DNA from: Acidobacteriota bacterium
Lineage (GTDB): Bacteria > Acidobacteriota > Blastocatellia > Pyrinomonadales > Pyrinomonadaceae
Assembly (NCBI GenBank): GCA_029557535.1
Contig: JAKQII010000143.1
Span: forward strand, 1-41,198
Length of the DNA: 41,198 nt
Direction: 5' to 3'
Part shown: in pieces, positions 22,713-33,546 of the stretch
Position numbering within the stretch: position 1 is the first letter of the stretch
Layout: every line of letters begins with the position of its first letter
Notes under the pieces: model-generated
Databases searched by the model: none
Seen by the model: the letters and a program-made list of their open reading frames with translations, nothing else
Told to the model about the DNA's origin: nothing
Program-made: the position numbers and the translations under genes

Positions 22713-24563
22713 TCAGAAGCGGTTGGCGTCGAGCCAATCGGAAAGCACGACGAGGTGCCAGACATGCGACCAGAGAACGCCGGAGCGCCGTTCGGAAAAG
22801 TCGTCCCAGAGCCGGGTCAGACGTCCGGGATCGAGCAGCGCCCGCCCGGCGAGCGCCGCGATCCGTGCTTCGCAAAACTCCCGCAGTTCCGCGCGCATCC
22901 ACTTTTCCCAAGGCAGGACGAACCCCATTTTTGGCCTGTGCACGATCGAATCGGGAAGGAGCGGCGCGAGCGAGTCCACCAGGAGCCGTTTCGGGAAGTC
23001 CGGATATTTGTATTCGTCGGGGATCTCGAGGACATATTCGACCAGCTCGTAATCGAAGAACGGTTCGCGGACCTCAAGGGCCGACGCCATGCTGAACTGG
23101 TCCGCGTCCTTGAGCAGCACGTTCTGGGTGTAACCTAGAAACTCGGCGATCGAGAACTGGCTCAGAAGCGGAAATTCGGCGATTGCCGCGGCGCGGCCCG
23201 CCAGTTCCTTGGTGATGTTGAAGGTGTCCGGCTTCCCGCCTTCAAGTTCGCAGATCAGCCGATCGGAAAGGACCTGCCGGGTCCGCGGATAAAAGTGCTC
23301 GATCCCGTTTCCGGACTCAAGGACAGCGCCGATCCGCTGGTGCTTCGAGTTTGCCGACAGGGCAAGGACGGCACCCGCGGCGCGGCGTACGATCCGCGGC
23401 GTGAGCGAAACCGCCCCGCGGCGGAACTTCAGCCAGTTGATGAAGTTCGGGTAGCCGGCGAAAAGCTCGTCACCGCCGACTCCCGACAGCGCGACCTTGA
23501 GGCCGGCGGCGCGTGTCGCCTTCGAGACGACGTAAGTGTTGACCCCGTCGCCGCTTGGCGAATCGGCGCCGGCGAGCGCGGCCGGAAGCGATTCGAGAAA
23601 GTCGCCCGCGCGGAGCCGCACGCTCTGGTGATCGGTCCCGAACCTTTTCGCGATCGTCTCGGCGTGGACCGATTCATCGAACTCAGGCTCCTCGAAATTG
23701 ACGGAAAAGGTGCTGACCGGCGCGTCGCTGATCTGCGACATCAGGGCGACGATCGCGCTCGAATCGATCCCGCCCGACAGAAAGGCTCCGAGCCGGACGT
23801 CGCTGACCAGGCGGCGTTTGACCGAGTTTTCGAGCAGTCCGCGAATCCGTTCGCGGACCTCGGGTGCGGACTTTTCGCTGAATGCTCCGCGGCGGCCGTC
23901 GATCGACCAGTAGCGGCCGGTGCGCAGCCCGCCCGTGCCGAATTTCGCCCAGCAGCCCGCGGGAAGCTGGCGGATGCCCGCAACGATCGTTCCGGGCGAG
24001 TACACGGACTGGAACGCCAGGTAATCGCGGAGTCCGGCCCGGTCGATCGTCCGGTCGGCAAGACCCGAGGCGAGAACGGAGCGGATCTCCGAGGCGAAGA
24101 CAAGATTCCTGCCGGTTAGGCAGTAATAGAGCGGCTTGACGCCCATCCGGTCGCGGGCAAGAAAAAGCTCGCGCGTCAGGCGGTCCCAGATGGCGAACGC
24201 GAACATCCCGTTGAGCATGGCGAGGCAGTCGCTTCCGAACCGCTCGTAAGCGGCGAGGATGGTCTCCGTGTCCGACGCGGTGCGGAACGGATATTCGGGC
24301 ATTCGCTCACGGACCTCGCCGAAATTGTAAATCTCGCCGTTAAATGTGATTATGAAACGGTTTTCCGTGTCCGACATCGGCTGGTTGGCGCTCTCTGAGA
24401 GATCGATGATCGAAAGCCGCCGGTGTCCGAGCGCGATGCCTTCGTCGATAAATCGCCCGGCGGCGTCGGGTCCGCGGTGGGCCAGCCGGCCGGTCATCGC
24501 ATCGATCGCCGCTTCGGCATGCTCGCGTTCCATCGGGCCGGCCAGACCGGCTATTCCGCACAT
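22713..24563 (-). CDS. asnB: Asparagine synthase (glutamine-hydrolysing) homologue
   Basis: MCGIAGLAG N-terminal Cys nucleophile at start 24563; HRRLSIIDLSESANQPM; LGAFLSGGIDSSAIVALMS PP-loop; GVGGDELFAGYP. Confidence 0.93.
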   Translation of the reverse strand: MCGIAGLAGPMEREHAEAAIDAMTGRLAHRGPDAAGRFIDEGIALGHRRLSIIDLSESANQPMSDTENRFIITFNGEIYNFGEVRERMPEYPFRTASDTETILAAYERFGSDCLAMLNGMFAFAIWDRLTRELFLARDRMGVKPLYYCLTGRNLVFASEIRSVLASGLADRTIDRAGLRDYLAFQSVYSPGTIVAGIRQLPAGCWAKFGTGGLRTGRYWSIDGRRGAFSEKSAPEVRERIRGLLENSVKRRLVSDVRLGAFLSGGIDSSAIVALMSQISDAPVSTFSVNFEEPEFDESVHAETIAKRFGTDHQSVRLRAGDFLESLPAALAGADSPSGDGVNTYVVSKATRAAGLKVALSGVGGDELFAGYPNFINWLKFRRGAVSLTPRIVRRAAGAVLALSANSKHQRIGAVLESGNGIEHFYPRTRQVLSDRLICELEGGKPDTFNITKELAGRAAAIAEFPLLSQFSIAEFLGYTQNVLLKDADQFSMASALEVREPFFDYELVEYVLEIPDEYKYPDFPKRLLVDSLAPLLPDSIVHRPKMGFVLPWEKWMRAELREFCEARIAALAGRALLDPGRLTRLWDDFSERRSGVLWSHVWHLVVLSDWLDANRF

Positions 24564-24784
24564 ATTGAAGAGCATACAACAAAGCCGCTCAGGTTGGACA
24601 ACGGGTCGCGGACCGCTCCGGCCGGAACCTGTTCAGAAATTACCTGAGGTTTTTTCGGGTGAATTCTGGAGTTTTCGTGAAATCGGATTGCAAATCACCC
24701 GTAACTGTGGCAAATACGGTAATTATCGGTTCATGTCATGGTTGAGATGTCGGCGCGGCGACGATTAGAGACCACATTAAGTCA

Positions 24785-31099: not shown

Positions 31100-31128
31100 T
31101 TGATAATTACCAATAGGCGTGACATAAT
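31100..31128 (+). promoter_or_regulatory. Strong sigma70-like promoter candidate for the PqqD/Cys-rich gene
   Basis: TTGATA (31100-31105) - exactly 17 bp - CATAAT (31123-31128); about 100-nt 5' leader to ATG 31236. Confidence 0.6.
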
Positions 31129-31235
31129 CTCTCGGACGTTGTAACGATTGATCGATATTTTTGTATTTGAAAGTTGATTTTGGTTCGATAAACCTTAACC
31201 AGACCCAGACCATGGAGAAACTGCAGGAGGAGACA

Positions 31236-31745
31236 ATGACGAATTCACAAATCCCGAAAGCTCGCAAGAATGGATTGGTGATACAGGAAACAGGGGACGA
31301 AGTGCTCGTTTATGATGTAGACAGCAACCGCGCGCATTGCCTTAACCGCACCGCCGCCTTCGTTTGGAAGTCATGTGACGGTCGAAGGTCGGTTCCGGAG
31401 ATTGCCGCTCTCCTCGGAAAAGAACTCGCGAACAAGGTCGACGAGGATCTGGTGTGGCTCGCGATCGATCAGCTTTCAAACGAGAGCCTTCTCGAATCGG
31501 GCATCAGGTTGAAACGGAGCGGTTTTTCCAGGCGTGACGCGATCCGGAAGATCGGCCTCGCGGCCGCTGTCACGCTTCCGGTGGTCGCGATGCTCAGTTT
31601 CCCGAACGGCGCGCTGGCGGTGACCTGCGCGGCGTCCTATTGCGGCACAAACGATCCGGGAAACGGTTGCGGCGGCGGCCAGTATTGCTGCAACAGCGGT
31701 GGTCTCTATCGGTGCCAGGTCGCGCCGTGTTCCACTCCTTGCTAG
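31236..31745 (+). CDS. PqqD-domain protein with internal twin-arginine-like signal and 8-Cys C-terminal tail (candidate RiPP-like precursor/carrier)
   Basis: aggagg SD at 31225-31230 before ATG 31236. PqqD-like VLVYDVDSNRAHCLNRTAAFVWKSCDGRRSVPEIAALL; FSRRDAIRKIGLAAAVTLPVVAMLSFPNGALA; tail VTCAASYCGTNDPGNGCGGGQYCCNSGGLYRCQVAPCSTPC. Confidence 0.88.
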   Translation: MTNSQIPKARKNGLVIQETGDEVLVYDVDSNRAHCLNRTAAFVWKSCDGRRSVPEIAALLGKELANKVDEDLVWLAIDQLSNESLLESGIRLKRSGFSRRDAIRKIGLAAAVTLPVVAMLSFPNGALAVTCAASYCGTNDPGNGCGGGQYCCNSGGLYRCQVAPCSTPC

Positions 31746-31769: not shown

Positions 31770-31803
31770 AATTGGCTTGAGGTCTCCTCAGGCCAATTTT
31801 TTT
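31770..31803 (+). terminator. Intrinsic terminator/attenuator between the PqqD/Cys-rich gene and the hprK-like gene
   Basis: AATTGGCTTGAGG-tct-CCTCAGGCCAATT (13-bp stem with one G-T pair) followed directly by TTTTT (31799-31803). Confidence 0.88.
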
Positions 31804-31804
31804 C

Positions 31805-32650
31805 ATGCACGAGGCGTTTCAGCACGATTTCGAAACCGGACGGTGGTCCGGCCGTATTGGATTCGCGCTTCACGGCGTGAGCTTCGGAATCCGGTTCGAC
31901 GACGCGGCCGCCGGGGAAGTGGTCCGCCGGATCGTCCCGCGCGCCGCCCTTCCCTCTGACTACCTTTCGTCCGAACACCGGTTTTCACTGATCTCGGCCG
32001 GCGGAGACGGTGCGAACGGCCTTTTTTTTGATACGCGGGATTTCGAGCCCGTCTTGAAGTTCGACCGGCTGGACGGCGGCACGGAAAAGGGACTCGAAAC
32101 CAAATTCCAGTTCGCGCTCGCGCTGGCGGCGGCACCGAGGCTTTTCTTTCTTCACGCCGGTGCCGTCGCGATCGGGAACATCGGAGTCCTCGTTCTGGGC
32201 CGGACGGGGTCCGGCAAAACCACACTCGTCGGCGAATTGCTCAGACGCGGGGCGGACCTCTGCACCGACGACTGCGCGATCCTCGATCCCGCCGGAAATC
32301 TCTACCCGAATCCGGCGCCGCTGGCGGTCAGGACCGGAGACGGACGCGCGTTCAGGGGGCCGGAGGAGTTCGGATCAATCGCCGCGTCGCGGGTCGTTCC
32401 CGTCGCTCTCGTCGTGGCGGCCCGCTATGAGCACGGCGCGGCTTGGGCACCCGAAGCGGAAGCGTCCGGCGGCGGCGCGTTCAACGTTCTCGGCAATCTG
32501 TTTTACCCGCCGGCGATCCGCGAGTTTCCGAGGGAGACCCTCGGGTTTGCGGGACTTATTGCGAAACGGGGGATCTATTCGGGAACCAGGGGGGAAGCGA
32601 CGGAAGTCGCTGAATGGATCTTCGGGACGATCGGACGGGGGCATGGATGA
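31805..32650 (+). CDS. HPr kinase/phosphorylase-like protein (HprK-related kinase)
   Basis: RLFFLHAGAVAIGNIGVLVLGRTGSGKTTLVGELLRRGADLCTDDCAILD: HAGAVA plus Walker A typical of HprK-like kinases. Confidence 0.85.
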   Translation: MHEAFQHDFETGRWSGRIGFALHGVSFGIRFDDAAAGEVVRRIVPRAALPSDYLSSEHRFSLISAGGDGANGLFFDTRDFEPVLKFDRLDGGTEKGLETKFQFALALAAAPRLFFLHAGAVAIGNIGVLVLGRTGSGKTTLVGELLRRGADLCTDDCAILDPAGNLYPNPAPLAVRTGDGRAFRGPEEFGSIAASRVVPVALVVAARYEHGAAWAPEAEASGGGAFNVLGNLFYPPAIREFPRETLGFAGLIAKRGIYSGTRGEATEVAEWIFGTIGRGHG

Positions 32651-33546
32651 AATCTGACCGTCCCGAAACGAATCTTGACGACGCAGCGAAGTTCGGAATG
32701 CTTCAATACAAGGTCGCCGAGCACGAGCTTGCGTCGATCTGGCGGACATTCCGACAGGCCGGGCTGCACCCGATTCTGATCAAGGGCTGGGCGGCGGCGC
32801 AGTACTATCCCGAACCGTGGACGCGTTCGCTCGGGGATTTCGACCTCGCGTTCCCGGCCGCCGAGTACCGGAACGCGGAGGCCGTTTGCGCCGGTAATCT
32901 GCCGAACCGGACGGATCTTCACCGGGAGCTTCGTCATCTCGATACCGAACGATGGGAACGGCTCCTCGAAAGGTCGGTTGAGCTTGAATGCGCCGGCGAG
33001 ATTATCCGGGTGCTGTGCCCCGAGGACCATCTGCGGGTGCTTTGCGTTCACTGGCTCAACGACGGCGGCGCGTACCGGGACCGGCTCCGGGACATCGGAA
33101 ATCTGCTGACGAAACACCGCGGGTCATTCGATTGGGAATTGTGTTTGGCGCCGCTGACGGCGGTCCGCCGGCGCTGGATCGAGGTCGCCGTCGCTCTCGC
33201 CGACCGCTATCTCGAGGATACTGACCTCTCGTTCGTCCCTTTCGCGGCGAAATTCGGCACGGTCCCGGGCTGGGTGATCAAAGCCCTTGAACGCGAATGG
33301 GGGTCCGGGAGGCGGCTTGTGCCGCTTCATTTCGTGCTGCGCGAACCGAAGGAACTCCTGATCCAGATAGGGAAGAGGCTCCCGCCCAATCCGATCCAGT
33401 CGACGATCGAACTCGAGGCCGATCTTGACGAGCGCCCGCGTGCAATGATCCAGACGGCGAACCTCTTTAAGCGGATAAGCCCGTCGTACAAGCGTGTTTG
33501 GCCGGCGCTGAAACGACTGCTGGGACCCGGACCGAGGAACTGGTGA
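32647..33546 (+). CDS. Nucleotidyltransferase family protein (NTP_transf_5-like)
   Basis: AGLHPILIKGWAAAQYYPEPWTRSLGDFDLAFP (KG...R..GD.D motif); LCPEDHLRVLCVHWLNDGGAYRDRLRDIGNLL. ATG 32647 overlaps hprK-like stop. Confidence 0.82.
   Translation: MKSDRPETNLDDAAKFGMLQYKVAEHELASIWRTFRQAGLHPILIKGWAAAQYYPEPWTRSLGDFDLAFPAAEYRNAEAVCAGNLPNRTDLHRELRHLDTERWERLLERSVELECAGEIIRVLCPEDHLRVLCVHWLNDGGAYRDRLRDIGNLLTKHRGSFDWELCLAPLTAVRRRWIEVAVALADRYLEDTDLSFVPFAAKFGTVPGWVIKALEREWGSGRRLVPLHFVLREPKELLIQIGKRLPPNPIQSTIELEADLDERPRAMIQTANLFKRISPSYKRVWPALKRLLGPGPRNW

Follow-up and report, generated by a model that had tools for sequence, protein, structure and literature searches.

A 169-codon gene on the forward strand (31236-31745) of the window, i.e. 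of the whole 41,198-nucleotide stretch of DNA analysed here, is best explained as encoding the precursor of an exported disulfide-rich mini-protein, in which a PqqD domain would stay in the cytosol and a real internal Tat signal would lead to the release of the C-terminal tail; we place the probability of this reading at about 65%. The 169-aa protein consists of (i) a PqqD/RRE domain with a linker (residues 1-97; 31236-31526, forward strand), (ii) an internal Tat-type signal, SRRDAIRKIGLAAAVTLPVVAMLSFPNGALA (residues 98-128; 31527-31619, forward strand), assigned on the invariance of its arginine pair, the Ala at the presumed cut and Tat models, which runs from SRRDAIRKIG through an h-region to ALA, and (iii) a 41-aa disulfide-rich tail with 8 Cys, VTCAASYCGTNDPGNGCGGGQYCCNSGGLYRCQVAPCSTPC (residues 129-169; 31620-31742, forward strand), which is the presumed released peptide and has the framework C-x4-C-x8-C-x5-CC-x7-C-x4-C-x3-C. 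The original prediction of a PqqD domain followed by an SRR twin arginine, a hydrophobic core and an ALA site matched the sequence exactly, from the start of SRR (31527) to the end of the last Cys codon (31742), and its cysteine framework was reproduced as written; neither the large paralogous family nor the kinase and nucleotidyltransferase-like companions described below had been mentioned.

The ATG is preceded by a strong Shine-Dalgarno sequence (AGGAGGAG; 31225-31232, forward strand), which, together with low dN/dS across all three parts of the protein, excludes the possibility that the open reading frame is a frame artefact. A promoter-like site (TTGATA-17-CATAAT, the second hexamer being preceded by TG; 31100-31128, forward strand) was inferred upstream of the gene from a consensus scan only, which found 2 such sites versus 0.6 expected from shuffled sequences. 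A terminator-like stem-loop with a T run (31781-31802, forward strand), located between this gene and the following kinase gene, is weak, the scan result being near the shuffle mean.

Alignment of the relatives, which had been proposed as a check of the SRR motif and the hydrophobic segment, revealed that both arginines are invariant (141/141 unique relatives) and that the hydrophobic segment and the A-x-A site are also kept. The residue preceding the arginine pair is S, T or N in 131 of the 141 relatives, and the second and third residues after it are hydrophobic, so that the signal context matches the Tat consensus S-R-R-x-hydrophobic-hydrophobic-K/R. The published consensus is S-R-R-x-F-L-K, in which hydrophobicity at the F position is important (PMC7317946). 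Since the same arrangement, with invariant arginines, recurs in 141 unique relatives, a signal arising by chance could be excluded.

The best 15-residue Kyte-Doolittle window of the hydrophobic segment has a median hydropathy of 2.24. The stretch is therefore long enough to remain uncleaved and to serve, after insertion by Tat or Sec, as a single membrane anchor, which would leave the PqqD domain in the cytosol and tether the tail on the outer face as a receptor or surface patch; the strong conservation of the PqqD domain is likewise in favour of this arrangement. We nevertheless consider it unlikely, although it cannot be neglected, since the Ala at the presumed cut (kept in 122/141 relatives) and the common occurrence of S or T at position +2 after it argue for signal peptidase cleavage, and since two near-invariant prolines (138/141 and 139/141) would make the segment a poor stable anchor. 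These prolines belong to a near-invariant P-x3-S-x3-P motif, which goes beyond what Tat needs; its Ser is found in 121 of the 141 relatives and is replaced by Met in the window copy (31527-31619). Together with the S/T at +2, this motif is perhaps a second recognition site.

The tails of the homologues, too, have paired cysteines, judged by their number, although the tails themselves vary strongly. Of 132 copies, 128 Cys-bearing tails were counted (in a few the tail was missing or cut in the alignment), and 127 of these contain an even number of Cys; the single odd one ends in a sequence that looks frameshifted, by inference. The evenness holds by framework (113 of 114 distinct ones) as well as by cluster (82 of 83 clusters at 60% identity), and therefore relatedness is not its explanation. 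It indicates, as far as can be judged from sequence, complete disulfide pairing outside the cytoplasm. Cysteine accounts for 15% of the residues of the tails versus 2% of those of the PqqD part, with as many as 22 Cys per tail and 114 frameworks among 128 tails; in one relative (L011, genome G002) the tail agrees with that of the window copy in its first five Cys and how they are spaced (4-8-5-CC).

Selection was estimated from 14 independent close pairs. Nonsynonymous difference per site amounted to 0.066 in the PqqD domain, 0.069 in the signal and 0.24 in the tail, and dN/dS to 0.07, 0.08 and 0.21, respectively. On this estimate purifying selection is strong and holds the signal no less tightly than the PqqD domain, while the tail changes about 3.5 times faster and yet remains Cys-paired.

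ICK-like spacing was detected in 25 of 128 tails (2.7 in shuffles), and the omega-atracotoxin and UPF0506 models matched four and three relatives, respectively (E about 1e-5). Such matches describe spacing and fold class, not activity. The term "knottin-like", originally applied to the window copy, thus holds by pattern for these 25 tails; the window copy itself does not meet the ICK six-Cys spacing and lies just outside it (x8 between the second and third Cys, x7 after CC), and the topology is unknown. In contrast to knottins, the tails are bacterial and are located behind a PqqD domain, and most of them, including that of the window, have other frameworks. For the tail, the AlphaFold2 (AF2) model, with pLDDT about 50 or lower, gave no usable information.

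The richness in Cys, together with the fact that Tat often carries metalloproteins (PMC7317946), raises the alternative of a tail domain that binds metal or a cluster and folds while still in the cytosol, hence the use of Tat. This is improbable in view of the extreme variability of the frameworks, the even Cys number in all tails but one, the scarcity of His (0.3% of tail residues), the enrichment of ICK-like patterns and the matches of knottin-type Pfam models to some tails.

Export through Sec, with the arginine pair supplying merely positive-inside charge, would suit an internal hydrophobic segment preceded by basic residues, but is very improbable, because the pair is never replaced, not even by lysine. 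In contrast, the basic position that follows the two hydrophobic residues swaps freely (80 K and 49 R in 141 relatives), and this provides an internal control: mere positive charge would permit lysine at the arginine pair too. Moreover, the Tat consensus surrounds the pair, and Tat models match the relatives (TAT_signal_seq 21/99, formate_TAT 41/99, at E<=1), if only weakly; the window copy alone scored 10.1 bits with the Tat model, below the cut-off of 16.7. The least credible alternative is that of two products, a full-length PqqD protein and a conventional Tat precursor with N-terminal signal, translated from a start of its own shortly ahead of SRR, for which an ATG at most 20 codons ahead of SRR (39/132 relatives) and a TTG a few codons ahead of it in the window could speak, and which is mostly excluded because the alternative start is not conserved (start codon plus Shine-Dalgarno-like sequence in just 8/132) and because the linker, from an LL pair at the end of the PqqD domain to the arginine pair, is 14-16 residues long in 122 of 132 relatives.

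The precursor therefore meets the tests of a Tat substrate with respect to arginine context, h-region with A-x-A site and machinery, TatC and TatA being present in its own genome; it does not meet that of N-terminal position, since 90-209 aligned residues (median 102) stand ahead of the arginine pair. Of the checks proposed originally, all those feasible in silico favour the proposed internal Tat-like signal exporting a small peptide, whereas export and cleavage have not been shown.

The PqqD/RRE assignment is supported by both a Pfam match and a winged RRE fold. PF05402 covers residues 22-64 of the window protein (E=4e-8, above its cut-off), and all 99 relatives match this model at E<=0.1. 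AlphaFold2 predicted a domain of 3 strands and 3 helices with high confidence (pLDDT about 97 for residues 11-50 and at least 93 up to residue 80), and then a helix at residues 99-113, starting from the arginine pair, followed by the low-confidence tail. Foldseek matched the domain best to solved folds of lasso RREs (TbiB1, with leader, TM 0.75 by target, and a second B1 protein) and to PqqD as part of PqqCD. The domain is probably a built-in (cis) form of the RRE, which delivers a peptide to the enzymes that modify it in lasso and PQQ pathways; leader binding is inferred only. A PDB search with the profile of the PqqD-signal-tail family found no sequence relatives. A true PQQ chaperone or a member of the HPr-rel-A system was ruled out, as the scores remained under the cut-offs.

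Within the same GTDB family (Pyrinomonadaceae) matches were found in 84 of the 119 genomes searched. On another contig, the own genome carries two more full-length copies (L002, L003); it also has a PqqD-only relative without signal or tail (L004:1495-1752), located downstream of a gene whose product contains several CxxCH motifs. Two genomes, IP29b_bin.76 (G007) and SSF56 (G033), contain at least 30 copies each among the scored matches; the PqqD-signal-tail proteins form a large paralogous family. The copies of these two genomes (L056-L075) are scattered and mostly stand alone, without kinase or nucleotidyltransferase genes; their tails reach 143 aa, and several are arranged in tandem (four in L064). 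A wide scan placed relatives in Pyrinomonadaceae and other Acidobacteriota MAGs, and a phylum sample contained full-length relatives in other families and classes, the weak matches being mostly plain PqqD domains. Outside the phylum, a plasmid of Gemmatirosa kalamazoonensis (Gemmatimonadota) encodes one relative with SRR, SIVAP, an A-x-A site and six tail Cys. No relative was found in viral contigs, which excludes a phage origin of the gene.

In the window the gene is preceded by a gene for a WecA/MraY-like glycosyltransferase (PF00953; 30079-31044, forward strand), which ends a polysaccharide gene cluster and is a conserved upstream neighbour in most single-copy loci. It is followed by genes for a 281-aa HprK-like kinase (31805-32650, forward strand; HprK_rel_A 4.5e-8, hpr-ser 4e-6, both below cut-off) and an NTP_transf_5 protein (PF14907, E=1e-18; 32614-33546, forward strand), another conserved neighbour, whose true start is probably the ATG at 32647, overlapping the kinase stop. 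Residues H117, G137, K138 and D155 of the kinase are invariant in 64 aligned relatives; a PDB search with the kinase returned no sequence relatives. The kinase gene adjoins the PqqD-signal-tail gene in most single-copy loci, where the usual order is WecA-like, HprK-like kinase, PqqD-signal-tail, NTP_transf_5, TsaB, RimI; the window differs in that the precursor lies ahead of the kinase. Linkage of kinase, precursor and NTP_transf_5 was also observed in divergent loci without the WecA gene. The kinase and/or NTP_transf_5 lie at most 3 kb away for 71 of 132 copies, and neither does for the other 61, some of which are near contig ends. The two copy-rich genomes have kept the kinase at the ancestral locus with no linked precursor, so that, if it acts on the scattered copies at all, it would do so in trans.

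Several loci contain additional genes. On plasmid 1 of G. kalamazoonensis (L189:2568-6830) an HprK-like kinase and the PqqD-Tat-6Cys precursor are accompanied by a MauE protein (PF07291) whose C-terminal half contains a CxxC motif, a possible disulfide-forming partner, and NTP_transf_5 is encoded on the other strand. In divergent loci (L054, L055, L164, L165, L181, L193) the trio or parts of it occur with O-antigen-ligase-like and TPR proteins; four of these (L054, L055, L165, L181) have a similar 936-1021-aa protein nearby, which in L054 is a C25 (gingipain-type) peptidase. Related 411-414-aa proteins, not assignable to any known family, are encoded directly 3' of two precursors in different genomes (L003:2119-3354, L067:7842-9086). 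An H-x-D...H pattern was noticed in them by eye; their assignment as iron/2-oxoglutarate oxygenases was rejected, there being no Pfam match and, for the L067 copy, no PDB match.

The arrangement has partial counterparts in known systems. Dual Sec-Tat membrane proteins, e.g. actinobacterial Rieske proteins (Tooke et al. 2017, PMC5449189), have been described with internal Tat signals; their twin-arginine signal likewise lies directly ahead of the last hydrophobic segment, and their C-terminal domain is exported by Tat. Their signal is, however, preceded by membrane helices, whereas here it follows an RRE domain, which is soluble, and the segment seems to be cleavable. In lasso peptide clusters, HprK-type kinases with H-K-D-D residues, comparable to H117/K138/D155 here, phosphorylate a Ser of the precursor, and hexose addition requires a nucleotidyltransferase homologue (PMC9266682). 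The lasso tailoring trio (B1 RRE, PadeK/ThcoK/PsmK kinase, PsmN) resembles the present loci in its RRE, its HprK-type H-K-D kinase and an adjoining nucleotidyltransferase-like protein, TbiB1 being the best match to the RRE fold. It differs in that here RRE and presumed substrate form one chain, Tat would be the export route and the tail is disulfide-rich, not a lasso. No lasso B2 protease or C cyclase was recognised among the neighbour genes examined; an Asn-synthetase-like gene (22713-24575) belongs to the polysaccharide cluster and is located on the opposite strand at a distance of 7 kb. By analogy with lasso peptides, the kinase/NTP_transf_5 pair may decorate the precursor. The HPr-rel-A system (NCBIfam TIGR04352 kinase, TIGR04353 PqqD) comprises distantly related kinase and PqqD homologues, but our kinase reaches only 32.5 bits against a cut-off of 200, and the models of that system have neither signal nor tail. 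TIGR04353 did not match the window protein at E<=1 and matched 34 of 99 relatives weakly.

For the exported mini-protein precursor, the signal motif, Cys pairing, selection and gene linkage rest on comparison among relatives, while translocation, cleavage, modification and final role are inferred. The PqqD/RRE domain would fold in the cytosol and remain there as a handle. Before export, the HprK-like kinase and the NTP_transf_5 protein would probably modify a Ser/Thr of the precursor, by phosphorylation or in some other way; Tat being strictly post-translational, time would be left for this. The Tat translocon would then carry only the C-terminal tail across the membrane by means of the genuine internal signal, signal peptidase would cut after A-x-A to free a tail of about 25-140 residues, and the freed tail would oxidise fully outside, VKOR being present in the own genome. 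Because of their fast change and multiplication, the released tails would most likely act outside the cytoplasm, on other cells, surfaces or the own envelope. Tat prefers folded cargo, and that of E. coli rejected an scFv lacking its cytoplasmic disulfides, although short unstructured regions can be tolerated (PMC6708511). An unoxidised Cys-rich tail would thus be odd as Tat cargo, and the tails would have to be tolerated or folded otherwise first.

The variable tail behind a conserved N-terminal part and the proximity of kinase/NTP_transf_5 genes noted above would be compatible with a RiPP precursor but do not establish one, modification being unproven. We can only tentatively suggest, with the odds rather against it, a new class of ribosomal peptides, in which recognition element and substrate are joined in cis, an internal Tat signal exports the C-terminal part only, the kinase and nucleotidyltransferase decorate it before export, and some genomes have expanded to at least 30 hypervariable, disulfide-rich products, on all of which one kinase locus would act in trans.

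No Pfam or NCBIfam model spans the PqqD-signal-tail arrangement, and no paper found in our literature search connects PqqD to Tat or to Cys-rich tails. Tat signals in internal position have been described, as have RREs and HprK-type kinases in lasso clusters; what is new is their combination in one chain. The family points to undescribed exported mini-proteins in a soil-type acidobacterium and its many relatives, export being inferred. If this is true, a family that is abundant in nature uses a Tat signal that functions after a folded soluble domain, which would challenge the working rule that Tat signals are N-terminal and the predictors built on it. The family would also represent a library, provided by nature, of disulfide-rich mini-proteins of Acidobacteriota, most of which are uncultured, and possibly a new logic of peptide natural products, with recognition element and substrate as a single chain.
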